Of a DNA stretch of 64,000 bases, positions 25,322 through 33,774 are shown piece by piece. Below the pieces are notes generated by a model that did not search any database, was not told the DNA's origin, and was given only the letters and a program-made list of their open reading frames with translations. This stretch comes from Methanothrix sp. (GTDB taxonomy: Archaea; Halobacteriota; Methanosarcinia; Methanotrichales; Methanotrichaceae), in the NCBI RefSeq assembly GCF_024518575.1, contig NZ_JANIHG010000003.1:1-64000 (forward strand), read 5' to 3'. Position numbers and translations under genes: made by a program. Numbering within the stretch: the first letter of the stretch is position 1; every line of letters starts with the position of its first letter.

Positions 25322-26734
25322 TCACTTCGGTGGCCAGTAGCTCTTCATCCAGTCGACTATGCGCCCGGAGTCCTCTGGACCAACCAGAATCTTCACCTTT
25401 CCGCCGAAGAGATCCTCGAGCTCGCCGCTGAACTTCGCCGCCATGCCCGGCAGAACAATCGACGGATACTTCATCTTCGTGAGGTCGAAGTCGGCTTCCT
25501 TGAACGCATCGACGATCTTCTGCGGGTTCAGCTGGCCGCCAGCGACAGATGCCTGCACGCCGATGCCATCGGTGTTGATGGACATGATGTAGGCGTCGAT
25601 GTTGTTCGAGGCGACATCCGATTCCACTGTGTAGTATGTGAGGGCGAAGTTGGTCGTGACAAAGACGGGAGACTCCTCCGTCGGGTTCCCGACCTTGTAG
25701 ATTCCCGGCTTGACCTGGACAGGTCTTCTCGGGTCGGTGTAGATGTTGTACCTGAGATGCATGTCAGGCATCACGCAGTGCGGCTCGATGCAGTGCTTGA
25801 TCATTATCGAGGCGCCGCGTATGACAAACGTCGCTGTAAGTATCGACTCCCAGTAGGCAGCCCTCACTGGGTCCTTGGTCGTGAACCATGCGTTGATGGG
25901 CAGGGCGATCGTCGGGTATGCGATATCCTTCTGCCCCTCCTCCAGCGCCGCTCTTCTCAGCTTGAGAAGGTTGTGCAGCGACTCCTGGAGCTTCTTGCCG
26001 TTCGGAGCAGTCCCGAAGTCCAGCACCAGGTCATGGATGCCCATCTGCTCAAAGGTAACAGCCATCGATTTGAGGCCGTCAAGATCGAAGGGCACGCTTA
26101 GAACGACCGGCACGTTGAACTCGTGGACGAGCTTTGCTACCTCCTGCCAGTTCTCCTTGTTGGCTGCGTAGACCAGCGGCCTGGTCTTGGCTGCGACCTC
26201 GAGGCCTGCCCTCAGGACCTTCGGATCGAATGAGCACAGGATCATCGGATAGTCTGTGGTCTCCATGACCTTCTTCACGCACGCTGCGAACTTCGCGGGA
26301 TCGCCAGAGGTCGACCGGACGGCGATCATCTCCACGCGTTCCCACTTGCCTATGTAGAACTTCTTCCAGGTGCTTATCTTCTTGACGCGCTCGACGAGCG
26401 CTGCCTCCTCCATTGTATCTGTGACATCGTAGGCGAACGGCGGCTTGTTGAAGAACGTCATCTGGTGGCGGTACATGACATCCTCGCCGCCGACCTTCAG
26501 CTCCTTATCCCCTGTGCCAACATATACAAGGCGTATCTCAGGAGCGACTATGGACTTGAGCGTCTCGTACTTCTTCGCGTACTTCTTCTCCTCGGCCAGC
26601 GGTGTGCACTCCTCAACGCGCTTCGACCTGTCGATCAGAGCTGCTGCAAACGCCATGCATGTCTGCAGCCCGCACTTGCCGCAGTTGGTCTGGGGAAGAT
26701 GTTTGTAAAGATTCAGGGGGCTCTTTTCCTTCAT
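25322..26734 (-). CDS. cdhE: ACDS gamma subunit, large subunit of the corrinoid iron-sulfur protein
   Basis: The protein moves the methyl group between the A cluster and tetrahydro(sarcina)methanopterin. The N-terminal cluster motif NCGKCGLQTCMAF with a later Cys in EECTPL binds the [4Fe-4S] cluster that keeps the corrinoid reduced. A TIM barrel follows and the C-terminal ~130 residues form the cobamide-binding domain. The 470-residue length is normal. The start is supported by GGAGGT 9 nt upstream. It is the last gene of the operon, 5 bp after cdhD, and is followed directly by a hairpin terminator. Confidence 0.97.
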   Translation of the reverse strand: MKEKSPLNLYKHLPQTNCGKCGLQTCMAFAAALIDRSKRVEECTPLAEEKKYAKKYETLKSIVAPEIRLVYVGTGDKELKVGGEDVMYRHQMTFFNKPPFAYDVTDTMEEAALVERVKKISTWKKFYIGKWERVEMIAVRSTSGDPAKFAACVKKVMETTDYPMILCSFDPKVLRAGLEVAAKTRPLVYAANKENWQEVAKLVHEFNVPVVLSVPFDLDGLKSMAVTFEQMGIHDLVLDFGTAPNGKKLQESLHNLLKLRRAALEEGQKDIAYPTIALPINAWFTTKDPVRAAYWESILTATFVIRGASIMIKHCIEPHCVMPDMHLRYNIYTDPRRPVQVKPGIYKVGNPTEESPVFVTTNFALTYYTVESDVASNNIDAYIMSINTDGIGVQASVAGGQLNPQKIVDAFKEADFDLTKMKYPSIVLPGMAAKFSGELEDLFGGKVKILVGPEDSGRIVDWMKSYWPPK

Positions 26735-26739
26735 CGCTA

Positions 26740-28098
26740 TCAGACCTCCATCTTGACCCAGTTGGTAATATCAGGAGTCTGCGCATCTATCAGTCCCATG
26801 AGAGTCTGTGTGATCTCCTGGAGGTAAGCGACCGCCATCGGATGCATCATCATGAACAGATCCACACCGGCCATCGCGAGCGAGAAGCCTGTTATGATCT
26901 CCCATATCGGGCCTCTGAGCATCCTGTCGCCCCAGTCGGAGTCCTCCTTGTTGGGCGAGCGGACCATCCAGGCCTCCCTCACGCCCCAGGCGTTTGTCGT
27001 GCCTGAAGACATCGGGAATGTGAGCTCCTCGTCTCCCTTCAGGGCACCGAGCCTTATGCGCTCCATGTTGGTGTACGCGAAGTCGAGACCGTATGCGAGA
27101 GCAGCCGTGGTCGGATCCATCACTATCGACTCCCTGGGAACTCCGGCGACCTTCATCAGCTTCCTGTTGAGCTCCTTCTGGGAGTTGATCTCGAGCTGCG
27201 TCCATGCCAGGCAGACATGTCCGTTGTCAACGCACGCCTTCCCGATCTTCTCCCAGTCCATGTTCAGGTTGGCGCTTGCAATGAGCGCGCGCTCGCCCTG
27301 GGCGACCTCAGCGGCTGCCTTGAGCACCTCAGGATCCTTGTCCGGGTTGCCCGAGCCGCCGATGCATATCGGGACGTCCACAGCCTGGAGAACCTCCTCA
27401 ACGGTCTTCGCAGCCTCTCTCGGCGGCGTATCCTTCAGGAGCGGATCTGTGCTGATGAGGTGTATTGTGACGAGATCAGCGCCGAACTTTTTGACAGCCT
27501 TCTTCGCCCACTCGCCGGGATCGTTGATGACATCCTCGTAGTGCATCTTGACTGCCTTTGCCATGCCGATGGGCATGTCGAAGACGTCCATCGTGACCAC
27601 GGGCCTGTGTGGCATTGGCGCATCGTAGAAGAACGGCAGCGCCTTCTCCCCGCCGATCTTTATCGTGTGACCTCTGCTTCCTCCATCAGCCTTCGTGGCT
27701 CCAAGCGTGACCTCCTGGATCGGGTACTTCCAGGTATCATCGATTCCGACCTGGAACTTCGCCTGGACCAGGCTGGTGGCAACCTTCCACTCAGGCACCT
27801 TGGCTGCCGCCTCCACCACCGCAGCTGGAGCTGGAGATATCGCGTGTGCAACTGCAGCAGGCTGCAGCAGAGCATCGACCGGATATCCCATGCTCCTGGC
27901 GAACTTTACGAGCTGCACCGCGATCTGGGCAACCTCCTGACCGAAGTAGTAGGCGAAGAGCGGCCCTATCCCAGCAGCTCCTGTATCTATCTCGATCTCT
28001 ATATCGCCCTCGATGGATACACCCTCGATGGCCTCAACGCCATATTCCGCCAATGTCTTGTTCAGATCTGATAATTTGATCTTCTTCTCCTCTGCCAT
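26740..28098 (-). CDS. cdhD: ACDS delta subunit, small subunit of the corrinoid iron-sulfur protein
   Basis: This TIM-barrel partner of CdhE in methyl transfer has 452 residues from ATG 28098 ([13 protein letters not shown]), which has GGGTGAT just upstream. The frame is open to 28107. Visible family features are [30 protein letters not shown] and [22 protein letters not shown]. An Ala/Pro stretch around residue 100 links the N-terminal extension to the barrel. cooC lies 12 bp upstream and cdhE 5 bp downstream. Confidence 0.96.
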
Positions 28099-28110
28099 AT
28101 AAATCACCCT

Positions 28111-28872
28111 TTAAATACCCAGAGCCTTGACGACATGCTCCTCGATCTCCTTCACCGAGGGGGTGTCATCAGGCAGGTTGATCAATGGGTCTCCCACCAG
28201 ATCGAAGTTGGCTAACCTCTCATCGTAGGGGATCGTGCCGATAACATTGAGGCTCACGGACTTGGCGTTCTCGATGATCTTCTCCCTGTTACCCTCTGTC
28301 ACCTTGTTCGCGATGACGTAGAGGTTGTTGTACTTGAGACCCAGCTCCGCGGCCAGTTCCCTGATCCGCTCTCCTGTGGTGAGACCACGTCTGGAGGAGT
28401 CCGTCACCACGATCAACGAGTCCAGATCCGGGATCACCTTCCTGCTGAAGTGCTCGAGGCCTGCAGCTGTGTCTATTATGGTGATATCGTACTGATCTAT
28501 CAGCCTGTCCATTATGCCTCTCAGAAGATTGTTGACAAAACAGTAACACCCCGAGCCCTCGGGTTTGCCCATGACCAGGAGATCGTAGCCATTCTCCTCC
28601 ACAAGGATCTCGAAGATCTTCGCCTCGAAGAGCCTCTCCTTGTCCGTGTCAGGCGGTGTGGTGTACCTGGCCTCCTGCATGAACTCCCTCATGTCCCCGA
28701 CGGTCTTCGTCACCTCAACGCCAAGAGCATCGGCGAGGTTTGAATCCGGATCTGCATCTATCACAAGAACGCGGTATCTTTTGCCGCTTTTGATCAGATA
28801 TCTGACCAGAAGAGCGGAGACTGCAGTCTTGCCAGTACCGCCCTTGCCCGTTATCGCTATTACTCTCCCCAA
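28111..28872 (-). CDS. cooC: CooC-like nickel-insertion ATPase
   Basis: This SIMIBI/MinD-type ATPase has deviant Walker A GKGGTGKTA at residues ~10-18, followed by VIDADPDSNLADALG. CooC-family proteins mature the nickel-containing C cluster of CO dehydrogenase. The motif GSGCYCFVNNLLRG (Cys-x-Cys) fits the family's metal or cluster-binding pair. The 253-residue length is normal. The start is TTG 28872 with GGAAGG 7 nt upstream. Its position inside the ACDS operon supports the maturation role. Confidence 0.93.
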   Translation of the reverse strand: MGRVIAITGKGGTGKTAVSALLVRYLIKSGKRYRVLVIDADPDSNLADALGVEVTKTVGDMREFMQEARYTTPPDTDKERLFEAKIFEILVEENGYDLLVMGKPEGSGCYCFVNNLLRGIMDRLIDQYDITIIDTAAGLEHFSRKVIPDLDSLIVVTDSSRRGLTTGERIRELAAELGLKYNNLYVIANKVTEGNREKIIENAKSVSLNVIGTIPYDERLANFDLVGDPLINLPDDTPSVKEIEEHVVKALGI

Positions 28873-28885
28873 GATCGAGCCTTCC

Positions 28886-29083
28886 TTACTTCTTCTGCTT
28901 TATGACTACTTCCTGAATATGTACACTCGCGCCTCTGAGCTCCAGGATTATGCCCTGAGATCCGCCGGCTGCGGGCATGGCAAACGCCGGGGCTGCAGCG
29001 GGTGCAGCAGCCGCAGGAGCTGCAGCAGCGGGAGCAGCCGCGGGCGCAGCCGCCTCCTTCTTCTTAAGCACTAGCTTCGCCAT
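28886..29083 (-). CDS. Ala/Pro-rich mini-protein 2 of the cdh operon
   Basis: This 65-residue protein has three parts: a basic N-terminus (MAKLVLKKKE), an Ala/Pro linker (residues ~11-38, repeats of PAAA), and a short beta-like C-terminus after GGS (GIILELRGASVHIQEVVIKQKK). ATG 29083 is preceded by GGAGGT 7 nt away. It is a paralogue of the gene at 29138-29326: 104 bp covering most of the linker differ at only one base. The C-terminal strand pattern resembles what I recall of the tail domain of Methanosarcina CdhC. A detached ACDS beta tail or adaptor is inferred. No family is firmly recognised. Confidence 0.75.
   Translation of the reverse strand: MAKLVLKKKEAAAPAAAPAAAAPAAAAPAAAPAFAMPAAGGSQGIILELRGASVHIQEVVIKQKK
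28962..29065. repeat. 104-bp duplicated segment, copy 1
   Basis: The segment encodes the Ala/Pro linker and flanks of mini-protein 2. It matches 29205-29308 at 103 of 104 positions. Confidence 0.9.
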
Positions 29084-29137
29084 CTTCAAAACCTCCCTCT
29101 CTTTCTCCCTCACAAAAATATATGGTAGACAGGTGTT

Positions 29138-29326
29138 CTACTTTGCCAGAACCACCTTGTCTATTGTTATCTTCGCGTCCTTCAGCACCAGCTTTATGCC
29201 AGCACCGCCGGCTGCGGGCATGGCAAACGCCGGGGCTGCAGCGGGTGCAGCAGCCGCAGGAGCTGCAGCAGCGGGAGCGGCCGCGGGCGCAGCCGCCTCC
29301 TTCTTCTTCAATACCAGCTTGCCCAT
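29138..29326 (-). CDS. Ala/Pro-rich mini-protein 1 of the cdh operon
   Basis: This is a 62-residue paralogue of the next gene with the same three-part plan: MGKLVLKKKEA, an Ala/Pro linker, AMPAAGG, then GIKLVLKDAKITIDKVV. The N-terminal KLVLK is echoed in the C-terminal KLVLKDAK. The start has GGAGG 8 nt upstream. It begins 16 bp after the cdhC stop, so it is expressed with the ACDS genes. CdhC here ends without an Ala/Pro-rich tail, so this may be that tail encoded separately. That is inference. A swinging-arm or subunit-tethering role is imaginable but unproven. Confidence 0.75.
   Translation of the reverse strand: MGKLVLKKKEAAAPAAAPAAAAPAAAAPAAAPAFAMPAAGGAGIKLVLKDAKITIDKVVLAK
29205..29308. 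repeat. 104-bp duplicated segment, copy 2
   Basis: This copy lies in mini-protein 1. The single difference from 28962-29065 is A/G in a GCAGCC/GCGGCC codon context. Confidence 0.9.
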
Positions 29327-29342: not shown

Positions 29343-30752
29343 TCACTCTAGCACGCCATCGGCCTGGAGCGCCTCGACAACCTGCATGAACTGCCCCTCG
29401 CTCATCAGGAGCTCGTTCTTCACGTTGTCTGTATCGATCTCGCCTCCATACTTCTCGATGAATGCTATGACCTTCTCCTTAAGCTCGTCGGTGACCTCCT
29501 CGAACTTCCAGCCCTCGGTTATCTTCTTGCCATCGACCGGCCTAACGACACCAGTGACGACTGGATGATCTACTTTGAGCAGGAACTTCTTAAGGGACTC
29601 GAGATCTTTCGCATCATCCTCTGTGGCGATCTTGTCGTACATCTCCGCGGGTATGCCCTCCTTCACCCTCTCCTTGAGCCTCTTGGACATCCAGACGATC
29701 CTGCGCCAGCCGCCGTCCGCCTGGAGGAACTTCGGGGAGAAGTAATACAGCACGCCCATTCCGAGGAAGCCGACTACCTGCTTGCCACCGCCGGTCTGTC
29801 CGGCCATGGTCGAGAACGGCAGGCCGTTCGGAGCAGCGCCCTTGAAGTCGCGGTCAGCGATGCCTATGCCGTCGACCTCGGGCATGTAGAATCCGATCGT
29901 CTCGAAGCAGCCGCATGATGTGTGGGGCGCATCGAAGAAGGTGTACAGCTTCATCACTGTGTACTCGCCGCCGGACCTCTTCGCGGCCATCTGGTTGATG
30001 CTCTCGTACTCTCCAGTGATCGGGTCCTTCAGCCCCTCCTTGGGTATCGGGAACTGCGGGCCCTCGGGGTCGACCTTGGAAGCAGCACGCCCATCGAACC
30101 ATGTGATGGCGCCGCAGAGCGATGGCCTGTCGGGCGTCACGACGCAAGCGCTTGTCGGAGCGAACGCCTGGCAGAGCGTGCATCCGTAGAAGACATCGAC
30201 GTCTTCATCGTGCAGACCCTTCGCCCTCTCGTCCCTCGCCTTGTAGACCTGCATCGCCTTCTCCAGCTCCTCCTTTACCTTAGCCGGATCTGTGATGACG
30301 GTTACCTCCATCTTCTCGATGAAGGGCATCTCGGCCTTGTACAGGTTGATGACAGGCTTGAAAATCTGCTCCCATGATGTGACACCCTTCTTCTGCAGGC
30401 TCTTGCCCAGCCTCATCCAGATATCGTACCTCTGGTTGAGGTGCATGAGGCCGCTTATGTAGGAGAGCAGAGCATGGTTGCGCCTCTCTATGATCGACTC
30501 CAGGTCCTTCTCGATCTTCTCGCCCGCGACCTTGAATATCATTCCGAAGGGGATCGTTGAGCCCTCCTTGACATCCTTCAGGTCAGGCCCGATGATCGTG
30601 ACCTTCCCGTCCTCCACCTCGTCCATCGAGGCTGCAAGGGTCAGCTCGAAACCGTCTGCCTTCGGGCCGCCCATCTCTACCCACAGGTCTTCCTTCCTTA
30701 TGCGCTCCCCTTCGTACATCGGGGATATGTCCAGTTGAATCTCTTCAGCCAT
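29343..30752 (-). CDS. cdhC: ACDS beta subunit, acetyl-CoA synthase
   Basis: The subunit carries the A cluster (Ni-Ni-[4Fe-4S]) where acetyl-CoA is cleaved or formed. The ligand region is FYGCTLCQAFAPTSACVV and SLCGAITW, and a later SCGCFETIGFYMPE is also conserved. The chain is 469 residues and ends at LQADGVLE. No Ala/Pro-rich linker or tail domain follows in frame; such sequences are in the two small genes immediately downstream. It lies 50 bp after cdhB. A 7-bp inverted repeat is in that gap. Confidence 0.97.
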   Translation of the reverse strand: MAEEIQLDISPMYEGERIRKEDLWVEMGGPKADGFELTLAASMDEVEDGKVTIIGPDLKDVKEGSTIPFGMIFKVAGEKIEKDLESIIERRNHALLSYISGLMHLNQRYDIWMRLGKSLQKKGVTSWEQIFKPVINLYKAEMPFIEKMEVTVITDPAKVKEELEKAMQVYKARDERAKGLHDEDVDVFYGCTLCQAFAPTSACVVTPDRPSLCGAITWFDGRAASKVDPEGPQFPIPKEGLKDPITGEYESINQMAAKRSGGEYTVMKLYTFFDAPHTSCGCFETIGFYMPEVDGIGIADRDFKGAAPNGLPFSTMAGQTGGGKQVVGFLGMGVLYYFSPKFLQADGGWRRIVWMSKRLKERVKEGIPAEMYDKIATEDDAKDLESLKKFLLKVDHPVVTGVVRPVDGKKITEGWKFEEVTDELKEKVIAFIEKYGGEIDTDNVKNELLMSEGQFMQVVEALQADGVLE

Positions 30753-30802: not shown

Positions 30803-31351
30803 TCACTTCTTCAGTATTGCGATCAGCTCATCGATCGCCTCGTGGTATCCTGCCGAGTCGAACGCCAGGTTCCCGAATGTCATATCCGCGTTGACATGGT
30901 AGTACCTGTCGATGGAGATCCTCTTGATGTCCCTGTTGAAGTGCTTCAGAGCAGAGAACATGGCGTTGGCGAACTTGTAGAAGATACCCATGAAGATCAC
31001 TACGTCATACTGTCCCTGCCCATCAAGGCCCTTCCAGTCCTTGAAGCGCAGGTAGTTCGTCAGCGGATGCAGGCCGATCGTATAGACGTTAGTCATGTAC
31101 CCCCTCTCGAGAAAGCCCTTCACCGTGTGAGCCGTCGCTGCAATTGGCATGTTCTTCGCCTTGGCGATCTCGATCGCCTTGTCGAACATGATCGGGTCAT
31201 CGAAGAGCTCTGCTCCCACAACAAGCAGCGGCCTCTTGGCCTTCTTTATGATGGCGCCTATGACCTTTACGGGATAGGTTTTTGCCATCTCGGGCCCGGG
31301 GATCTGGGCCATCTCAAAAGGTATGGGGTTTTTGGTTGTGTCGACTGCCAT
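30803..31351 (-). CDS. cdhB: ACDS epsilon subunit
   Basis: This Rossmann-like partner of CdhA in the alpha2-epsilon2 CO dehydrogenase module is thought to mediate electron or FAD/ferredoxin interactions. The N-terminus MAVDTTKNPIPF and KAKRPLLVVGAELFDD are family hallmarks. From ATG 31351 it has 182 residues. A GTG at 31360 would overlap the cdhA stop, but the family usually starts with the xVDTTKN stretch. Confidence 0.95.
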   Translation of the reverse strand: MAVDTTKNPIPFEMAQIPGPEMAKTYPVKVIGAIIKKAKRPLLVVGAELFDDPIMFDKAIEIAKAKNMPIAATAHTVKGFLERGYMTNVYTIGLHPLTNYLRFKDWKGLDGQGQYDVVIFMGIFYKFANAMFSALKHFNRDIKRISIDRYYHVNADMTFGNLAFDSAGYHEAIDELIAILKK

Positions 31352-31356
31352 TTCCC

Positions 31357-33774
31357 TCACTTCCTAACCCTGATCTTCCTCTCGATGTTGGTCGGATCGA
31401 AGCTCACGTCTGCCGGCCTGATCGGGCCCTCGACGATCTTCTTCGCCTTCCAGTCGATCTTCCAGCCGTACTTCTCCTCGAGCTCCTTCATCATCTGGTC
31501 CTTCCAGGCGAGCGGAAGCTCAGAAGCGTGTCTCACGAAAATGGGCCAGTCATCCGGAAGCTTCCCGAAATATTTCATCGATATATCGCAGTAGTGGGTC
31601 AGCTTGATCATTCGTCCAATGGAGTTGTCGCTGGGCCTGAAGCAGAGCTTGGCCATCATCAGCATGGCCTCCTCCTTTGTCTCTGCCACATACAGCATGT
31701 GCTCGGGGGCAGGCTCGATCCTGACCTTAGACCCATCTCTGGCATCTATGACGATCCAGTCCTCAGGCACGTCTGTTCTGGAGAGGAACGCCCTGCGGTA
31801 TATCACAGAGTGCGGCTGCACAACAACGGGTACGCCGATCCTGTTGACTCCGGTTGCGATCGAGGCAGCCTTCTGAGAGTAAGCGCCCCACGCTATGCCG
31901 CATGCTCCGACCTTGGAGAGGATGTAATCCGCGATGTCATCGTAGTTTGCACGATGGTTCCTGTGAGCGAATATCGTGGCAACCTTAATCGCAGCTCCGT
32001 GTATGTGGGCATTTGCAACACATGATCCGATATTGCATATATTTCTGCCATCGAATGCGCCTGGATACTGCTCCCAGATCGTCTTGCCATCTGCATCAGT
32101 GTACAGGGACATATCCATCGCCATGCATCCGGTGGTCACAACAATATATCCTCTGTCGACGAACTCCTTGGCGATATCGTATGCCTCCTTAGTGCCATTC
32201 GGATAGTTGCTGCATCCGACAAGCGCAATCACTCCGGGGATTGTGCCGAGAACTATGGGAGCTCCTACTGCCCTGATCTCCGTATCCCTGACAGGTCCTC
32301 TGCCAGCCCTCATCTTGAACTTCTGGTTCCTGATGTACTCCCTGTTGGCGTACTCATACATCTTCAGGATCGGCAGATCCTGCCTGCAGACCTGCTCGCA
32401 TCTGCCGCATCCAACGCAGACCTCGTATGTCGAGGAGAACGGCTCCAGGTTGCCCTTTGCGGCTTCCTCCATGAGATGGCTTATCCTGATGTGCGGCGGG
32501 CAAACGAATGCGCACTCGTTGCACTTTGTGCAGCTCGAGACCAGCTTCTTGAACTCATCCTCTGTAAGCACACTCTTGTTCTTGATATCTGCGCGCTTTG
32601 GCTTCACCGCAATGGCTGTCTTAACACCGACCTCTCCGGCCTTGACCGGATCCAGTATAACAACACCCGGCACCCTGAAGTTAACAAGATCATCCACGAT
32701 CTCATCGACCGGGTCATTCGTCCTGTCCTTGAGGCCCAGCATAATCTTATCATTGGTGGCGATCAGGGGGATCTTCCGCTCCTCGCAGTCCTTCAGAGCA
32801 TCGCACCAGACACACTGCTCATCGATCATCACCGTGTCCATGATGCCTGCCCTGACCATCTTTCTCCACCAGCCGATGGCACCGACAACCTTTGCCTTGG
32901 TTCCCACCATATCCGGAACCTTCTTCTCGCCCATACCCTCGCCGATCCTGGTGAGATCTATGGCCGTGCAGCAGACGCCACCTATATCGACCTTGTCCCA
33001 GAGGTTGTTTGCCTCGGTGTAGAACATAGCCTCGGCGCCGGCTGCAAGGTTGTGACCGTATGCGATCAGGACCGCCTTGTTCTGATCCAGTGTGCCCATG
33101 CCGATCTCGACAAGGGGAGCGTTCGGATCGCCGCGCGGCATGTTGTAGGCCACGATCTGCAGCATATCGCAGATCTCTTTTCCAAGAGAGTCTATCATGC
33201 CTGCGTGAAGGGCCTTGGACTCGAAGTCAACGTAGTTGCCCTCCTGGCCGGTGTGCGTGGCCGCCAGGAGCTGTGTGATCTGCTCCTCGCAGTACTCAAG
33301 AGCCTTGCCGAAGTCTTTCAGGCTCTTCGGCCTGATGCCGATTATGGTCTCAGTCAGGGGTGCGGTCACAAGTATGTCGGTGCCCATGTCGAATTTCATG
33401 TCACCGAACTTGTCAAGCGTCCAGTGGTACAGATGTCTTCCATGAGCCGTATGAGCGCATGTGCCCATCAGGCATGCGACAAGAACGATCTTACCGCACG
33501 TTCCAGCCATGTCTATGCCGCATGCTCCGCGCTTGTTGCCGGTGAGATCGCATGGACCGTATGTACAGAGTGTACATGTATCGTCTGCAGGCGCGTAGAA
33601 TATTCTATAACGATTCAAAATCTTGAAGTCCCAGTCGCGCAGGGTTGCGATCTGCGGCTTCGGGAACGGACCCATCGGCTGGTCCCATTCCTCTTCCTCC
33701 TTAACGACAGCCCCTATGTTGATCTGGACATTCTTCATGTCCTCAACTGTAAAGCTGCCCTCGAGCTTTGCCAT
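31357..33774 (-). CDS. cdhA: ACDS alpha subunit, nickel CO dehydrogenase
   Basis: This is the 805-residue catalytic subunit interconverting CO and CO2 at the Ni-Fe-S C cluster. N-terminal Cys motifs (CTLCTYGPCDL and GACGIDMAGTC) bind the B/D clusters. Two ferredoxin-like motifs in the middle (CTKCNECAFVCPPHI and CVGCGRCEQVC) carry the extra clusters typical of the archaeal enzyme. C-cluster ligands occur in GCSNYPNG and further Cys residues. It is the first gene of the operon. GGAGG lies upstream of ATG, and a TATA box at 33824-33836 gives a leader of about 25 nt. Confidence 0.97.
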   Translation of the reverse strand: MAKLEGSFTVEDMKNVQINIGAVVKEEEEWDQPMGPFPKPQIATLRDWDFKILNRYRIFYAPADDTCTLCTYGPCDLTGNKRGACGIDMAGTCGKIVLVACLMGTCAHTAHGRHLYHWTLDKFGDMKFDMGTDILVTAPLTETIIGIRPKSLKDFGKALEYCEEQITQLLAATHTGQEGNYVDFESKALHAGMIDSLGKEICDMLQIVAYNMPRGDPNAPLVEIGMGTLDQNKAVLIAYGHNLAAGAEAMFYTEANNLWDKVDIGGVCCTAIDLTRIGEGMGEKKVPDMVGTKAKVVGAIGWWRKMVRAGIMDTVMIDEQCVWCDALKDCEERKIPLIATNDKIMLGLKDRTNDPVDEIVDDLVNFRVPGVVILDPVKAGEVGVKTAIAVKPKRADIKNKSVLTEDEFKKLVSSCTKCNECAFVCPPHIRISHLMEEAAKGNLEPFSSTYEVCVGCGRCEQVCRQDLPILKMYEYANREYIRNQKFKMRAGRGPVRDTEIRAVGAPIVLGTIPGVIALVGCSNYPNGTKEAYDIAKEFVDRGYIVVTTGCMAMDMSLYTDADGKTIWEQYPGAFDGRNICNIGSCVANAHIHGAAIKVATIFAHRNHRANYDDIADYILSKVGACGIAWGAYSQKAASIATGVNRIGVPVVVQPHSVIYRRAFLSRTDVPEDWIVIDARDGSKVRIEPAPEHMLYVAETKEEAMLMMAKLCFRPSDNSIGRMIKLTHYCDISMKYFGKLPDDWPIFVRHASELPLAWKDQMMKELEEKYGWKIDWKAKKIVEGPIRPADVSFDPTNIERKIRVRK

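Follow-up and report, generated by a model that had tools for sequence, protein, structure and literature searches.

Two small genes between cdhC and cooC in Methanothrix: a detached CdhC tail and a paralogue as proposed tethers of ACDS

We describe two small genes, referred to here as mini1 and mini2, which lie inside the cdh (ACDS) operon of a Methanothrix sp., and propose, with a probability of roughly 0.6, that their products are ACDS tethers acting in trans, clipping onto the winged helix at the end of CdhC while a β-hairpin reaches other subunits. ACDS is central to the production of methane from acetate, and Methanothrix lives on acetate. Both minis are confirmed as real genes without annotation so far, and mini1 carries the tail that is missing from the CdhC encoded next to it. 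The window is the whole stretch of DNA analysed, 64,000 nucleotides in length, and the features discussed are listed in Table 1.

Table 1. Features of the cdh operon in the window and related loci (positions refer to the window unless a locus is named).
Feature	Position	Strand	Basis or remark
cdhA, CODH alpha	31357..33774	minus	Pfam/NCBIfam
cdhB, CODH epsilon	30803..31351 (approx.)	minus	Pfam/NCBIfam
cdhC, acetyl-CoA synthase beta subunit, without linker and tail	29343..30752	minus	PF03598/PF19436, NCBIfam
CdhC winged-helix-like C-terminal domain, residues ~413-469	29346..29516	minus	weak PF24034; AlphaFold2
mini1, whole gene with stop; detached CdhC tail protein, 62 aa	29138..29326	minus
mini1 N-terminal motif MGKLVLKKK, proposed clip to CdhC	29300..29326	minus	common to mini2, co-varying; low-confidence AlphaFold2 strand
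mini1 Ala/Pro linker	29201..29299	minus	sequence; length and composition change fast
mini1 tail GIKLVLKDAKITIDKVVLAK, matching the CdhC tail (type 1); predicted β-hairpin	29141..29200	minus
mini1-mini2 spacer, T-rich tract	29084..29137	minus
mini2, whole gene with stop; 65-aa paralogue with type-2 tail	28886..29083	minus
mini2 N-terminal motif MAKLVLKKK	29057..29083	minus	co-variation with mini1 N-motif
mini2 Ala/Pro linker, lately homogenised with mini1 linker	28955..29056	minus	117/126 nt, N-half and linker
mini2 tail GIILELRGASVHIQEVVIKQKK, type 2; predicted β-hairpin	28889..28954	minus
Gene-conversion tracts, mini2 versus mini1	28955-29083 and 29201-29326		117/126 identical
cooC-like P-loop ATPase gene, operon neighbour	28111..28872	minus
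CdhD N-terminal element LEGVxIEGDIEI, tail look-alike	~27980-28101		not significantly related
cdhD, CFeSP delta	26740..28101	minus	Pfam/NCBIfam
cdhE, CFeSP gamma	25322..26734	minus	Pfam/NCBIfam
Tail-only Archaeoglobi microproteins	L108:3561-3671, L118:4579-4659, L194:3140-3211, L195:2698-2796		mostly overlap both neighbours by a few bases
Further Archaeoglobi microprotein loci	L119, L120, L127-L129, L131, L136, L144, L149, L150

The two genes and their place in the operon

An earlier note made from the DNA had placed two genes of 62 and 65 codons between cdhC and cooC, each with its own ribosome site, and this agrees with the coordinates and with the GGAGG (mini1) and GGGAGG (mini2) sites found a few bases 5' of the ATG codons. 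There are 16 nt between the cdhC stop and mini1, 54 nt between mini1 and mini2, and 13 nt between mini2 and the cooC start, and each mini is present as a single copy in the source genome. The common plan that the note had described, an M[AG]KLVLKKKE start followed by an Ala/Pro linker and a short tail, can be read from the translations (mini1 is MGKLVLKKKE...GIKLVLKDAKITIDKVVLAK and mini2 is MAKLVLKKKE...GIILELRGASVHIQEVVIKQKK, with MGKLVLKKKEAA as the N-terminal peptide of the pair), and a Pfam search of both proteins assigned neither to a family. In the open literature we found no published report of these small proteins or of minis in a purified complex, and no trace of them in proteomics or ribosome profiling.

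The position of the minis inside the operon is conserved among relatives. When the pair was sought in other Methanothrix cdh operons, each of the six genomes in the genus had both genes at this position, and the arrangement recurs across the Methanotrichaceae (the family which includes Methanothrix/Methanosaeta and Methanocrinis). With a mini2 profile, 37 of 50 family genomes, belonging to nine genera, yielded a short ORF at E<=1e-11; many of the genomes with no match are incomplete assemblies, and in one further genus the mini2 gene is broken by masked bases. Within the genus, pairwise comparison of the mini1 tail gives 0-2 synonymous changes and none in the amino acids; for the mini2 tail it gives 0-2 non-synonymous and 0-5 synonymous changes. 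These data confirm that both minis are conserved across the Methanotrichaceae and are under purifying selection.

The two genes need not occur together. M. harundinacea has a second cdhABC cluster with mini1 only, followed by hdrE-like and hdrD-like genes and no adjoining cooC, and its other cdhC has both minis 3' of it; mini1 thus goes with cdhC, and mini2 probably with the cooC-cdhDE side of the operon. We note that Mhar_0789 is CdhA and Mhar_0792 is HdrE, and that the numbers between them leave room for cdhB and cdhC only (PMC3349665), so that mini1 is probably unannotated in this species. Two further second cdhC copies, in M. concilii (L013) and in an M. harundinacea-like MAG (L100), have the winged-helix end and no mini in the downstream sequence examined, with an HdrE-like gene directly 3' of cdhC in the latter. 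Linkage in cis is therefore not strict, and such copies may borrow minis in trans.

The spacer between the minis, in this window and elsewhere (L077:7618-7665 and equivalents), includes a T-rich tract conserved 3' of mini1 which in many species lies within an inverted repeat, CTCCC-TTTTTT-GGGAG. This repeat may be a partial terminator, or a site of processing, that separates cdhABC-mini1 from mini2-cooC-cdhDE; RNAalifold gave support for only three pairs of the spacer hairpin.

Tail types and the end of CdhC

The source CdhC has no tail of its own, as the earlier note had recognised: it matches NCBIfam PRK04456 (E 1.6e-212) only as far as position 416 of 464, and its match to the NCBIfam cdhC model TIGR00316 ends at position 421-427 of 460. 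The part of TIGR00316 that is absent from this protein, positions 428-460 of 460, is matched by mini1 (E 1.4e-4). Comparison of the 22-residue mini1 tail with the sequences of solved structures returned a single match, residues 447-466 of Methanosarcina thermophila CdhC (9c0s_E, E 0.05), and the alignment of these residues (GGIKLTFKNAKITIDRMIIS) to the mini1 tail bears out the earlier note's statement that Methanosarcina CdhC carries a C-terminal linker and tail. A profile built from mini1 tails only gave scores of 20-34 bits to 10 of 12 tails from other archaea, the mini2 profile scored the same tails at -3 to 15 bits, and all CdhC tails score higher with the mini1 profile than with that of mini2. 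In a class scan of 238 genomes, the CdhC proteins of the other six families mostly run in one frame to model position 458-460, whereas Methanotrichaceae CdhC comes to an end near 418-445 or extends to 459-460 only if stop codons are read through, and among the cases listed only this family had the tail in a separate frame; linker and tail share one CdhC frame in other Methanosarcinia, Archaeoglobi, GoM-Arc1-type and Methanoperedens genomes. Judged by these matches, the last 20 residues of mini1 are the CdhC tail, which we refer to as type 1.

The mini2 tail falls outside type 1 and belongs to a separate subfamily of the same superfamily, as the mini2 profile finds CdhC tails at E values of about 1e-6 to 1e-3 and the HMM-HMM comparison of the two tails gives a probability of 96%. 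The proposal that the minis are the CdhC tail freed and duplicated thus stands in its first half for mini1, on the TIGR00316 and 9c0s_E matches, and does not hold as a simple duplication in its second, as the tails are only ~31% identical and each is conserved on its own. We found no tail fused to ACDS subunits other than CdhC, the loci examined showing CdhC C-termini and small ORFs only. The N-terminal element of CdhD resembles the tails by eye and was rejected as a homologue (hhalign probability 1-2%).

Methanotrichaceae CdhC ends in a domain of ~57 residues with three helices and short strands. The corresponding end of Methanoliparum CdhC scores above the cut-off for the Pfam winged helix HTH_24 (PF13412), and other such ends match DUF7343 (PF24034) weakly. 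The same CdhC end is accompanied by a detached type-1 mini in the Methanoliparia (Methanoliparum and Methanolliviera) and in a third family, f12 (genome G242), the N-motif of these minis being LKLK/LKIK, and a winged helix ends CdhC in all the detached cases that were inspected. The f12 genome is a single contig of 1.07 Mb in which the locus (L185, G242:C1:243500-250500) includes a winged-helix CdhC and a detached mini of ~58 aa (MSDKKPLKLKIKKKE...GGIKLVLKNAKIHIDQVIIRKK). A phylum scan of 393 genomes, with frames cut by contig ends set aside, found short-frame type-1 tails, among the matches listed, only in the Methanotrichaceae, f12 and f13; the other type-1 tails end CdhC-sized frames. In these three families the tail is not covalently part of CdhC and is encoded by a separate ORF with its own start and ribosome site.

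The tree of the CdhC core, in which the root is unknown and the f12 and f18 branches are long, does not unite the lineages with detached tails in a single clade, and a single-clade origin of the winged-helix/detached state was rejected by the AU test (p 3.4e-6); f12 CdhC is sister to a fused-tail sequence in this tree. The winged helix and detachment of the tail travel together, via repeated gain, module transfer or repeated loss, and ancestral presence with later re-fusion, or transfer as a module, are possible alternatives for the combined state.

Type-2 tails also occur outside the Methanotrichaceae. With a joint type-2 profile, many Archaeoglobaceae genomes were seen to encode microproteins of this kind, at E values as low as 1e-12, and matches at 1e-14 to 1e-7 were obtained in families f1 and f10. 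The Archaeoglobi microproteins have 22-32 residues (the shortest noted, MKIELKGAKIYVEKIVFKKKKR, has 22), consist essentially of the tail, often with an acidic end, and lie between cdhC and cooC, where the start of the microprotein gene typically falls on the stop of cdhC and its end within the start of cooC. They are like mini2 in having a type-2 tail and in occupying the slot directly 5' of cooC, but differ from it in having neither N-motif nor linker, and the Archaeoglobi CdhC keeps its fused tail. A mini2 profile made from Methanotrichaceae sequences only beats the mini1 profile for seven of nine Archaeoglobi microproteins, which makes the link between mini2 and these proteins a moderate one, and profile searches detected no type-2 tail in the Methanosarcinaceae examined. 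There is moderate support for type 2 being an old component in its own right, with the N-motif and linker added to it in the Methanotrichaceae.

A shared N-terminal motif and two distinct tails

Compared across 23 genomes, the N-terminal 14 residues of the two minis are 86% identical within genomes and 64% identical between genomes, and none of 5000 permutations gave an identity as high as the within-genome value (0.86). Over the same genomes, tail identity between the two minis is only 31% within a genome, but among orthologues it is 88% for type 1 and 74% for type 2. This indicates that the N-ends are either under one constraint or homogenised, and that the tails are kept distinct. Both minis share an N-terminal LxLKxK motif, which co-varies within each genome, and carry two separate conserved tails, much like one socket with two plugs.

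In the source genome the N-half and linker of the two minis are identical at 117 of 126 nt (tails excluded), compared with 88-100 of 126-138 columns (gaps included) in congeners, and over this region the source mini2 is closer to the source mini1 than to its own orthologues from other species. The two genes resemble each other here, in what the earlier note had taken for paralogy, largely because their N-halves and linkers have lately undergone gene conversion, and the co-variation of the N-halves could come from gene conversion alone. A simple recent duplication was rejected because the tails are old and distinct and only the N-halves have lately become alike; the divergence of the tails is much older than the homogenisation.

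CdhC tethering and its alternatives

The cryo-EM analysis of the Methanosarcina thermophila enzyme published in 2024 describes an ACS extension of ~75 residues (residues 398-472) which was not resolved, is of unknown function, and likely plays a role in the swing of ACS between CODH and CFeSP; both the movement of CdhC between these two and the job of its tail were stated as open (PMC11474084). This extension (PDB 9C0S/9C0T) is similar to the minis in having a flexible low-complexity linker and a tail of ~20 residues (KIxLKNAKIxIDKIIIK), whereas Methanothrix has two separate polypeptides with an N-motif and a CdhC which ends in a winged helix. The Ala/Pro-rich linkers of E2-type swinging arms and BCCP proteins (2-oxoacid dehydrogenases and biotin carriers) are also reminiscent of the minis, but profile matches are at chance level (those to NCBIfam linkers lie far below the cut-off) and the minis have no lipoyl, biotin or catalytic domain; Pfam found no carrier domain with a modified Lys in either, so that they may at most work alike without being members of these systems.

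In the mechanism we propose, the N-terminal LxLKxK strand of each mini would clip onto the winged-helix domain that stands in place of the linker and tail at the CdhC end, the Ala/Pro linker would provide the slack of the strap, and the C-terminal β-hairpin would bind another ACDS component. As the clip is common and the hairpins are different, the straps could link a single CdhC to two different places, such as CODH and CFeSP, as it moves from one to the other. The main argument for docking of the N-motif on the winged helix is that the winged helix and tail detachment co-occur. AlphaFold2 models were obtained for read-through chains in which CdhC and the minis are joined, with stop codons read as Gly and few sequences as input. 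The N-motif is a strand in both models (pLDDT about 44-62), and in the longer chain both tails are β-hairpins (pLDDT 44-54), the shorter construct having no tail hairpin; as a test of docking this was set aside, the confidence being too low to decide and the single chain artificial. We infer that the minis are translated, have a place in ACDS and act mechanically, and a tether function may reasonably be inferred.

Other explanations would give the minis a different role. They could be glue for self-assembly, with the tails pairing (type 1 with type 2, or the N-strand with a tail) to join ACDS protomers, which would suit two predicted β-hairpins belonging to one family (see the HMM probability above) and the finding that in Archaeoglobi the CdhC tail has a basic end and the type-2 microprotein an acidic one. 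We consider this unlikely, however, as the Methanosarcinaceae and most other families have the CdhC tail and no detectable type-2 partner, and the AlphaFold2 model shows no confident packing of tail on tail. Rather unlikely, too, is a role as transient assembly or maturation factors, for example in bringing CdhC to the CooC-type ATPase so that nickel can be inserted. The minis are directly 5' of the cooC-like gene, and the Archaeoglobi microprotein shares a few bases with cdhC on one side and with cooC on the other, but the type-1 tail is a covalent and permanent part of CdhC in most archaea examined, the second M. harundinacea cluster has mini1 with no cooC next to it, and the minis have no metal-binding pattern (there is no Cys in either, and a single His, in mini2).

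It is very improbable that the minis are decaying by-products of a tail that became dispensable once CdhC gained its winged helix: the second cdhC copies without adjoining minis speak for such remnants, but the tails are strongly conserved across the family and present in nine genera, and purifying selection within the genus and the genes' own ribosome sites also argue against decay. An artefact, in which a frameshift or gene-calling fault has left CdhC to be read in pieces, can be dismissed with near certainty, since the layout is the same in dozens of independent assemblies (including finished Methanotrichaceae genomes attributed to M. thermophila PT, M. concilii and M. harundinacea 6Ac) and the minis have their own ATG and ribosome site, often in another frame than cdhC. 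Tethering in trans is the reading we prefer, and we speculate that a non-covalent strap would fit the report that CODH purified from Methanosaeta is a two-subunit enzyme, the five-subunit complexes coming from Methanosarcina (PMC4500148).

Our analysis predicts an overlooked class of proteins of 22-66 residues in archaeal cdh operons. The winged-helix CdhC end found wherever the tail is detached, the N-motif shared by the minis, the tail-only microproteins of Archaeoglobi and the gene conversion of the N-halves are new here. As the tail is cut into separately expressible peptides and has a predicted docking domain, its job becomes open to binding and add-back experiments. We suggest tentatively, at somewhat less than even odds, that the ACDS of Methanothrix and its relatives has two tether subunits with one common clip for CdhC and two docking hairpins, that the synthase would be handed between CODH and CFeSP by these interchangeable free straps, and that the type-2 hairpin may be an older, overlooked microprotein component of ACDS which stands alone in the Archaeoglobi.
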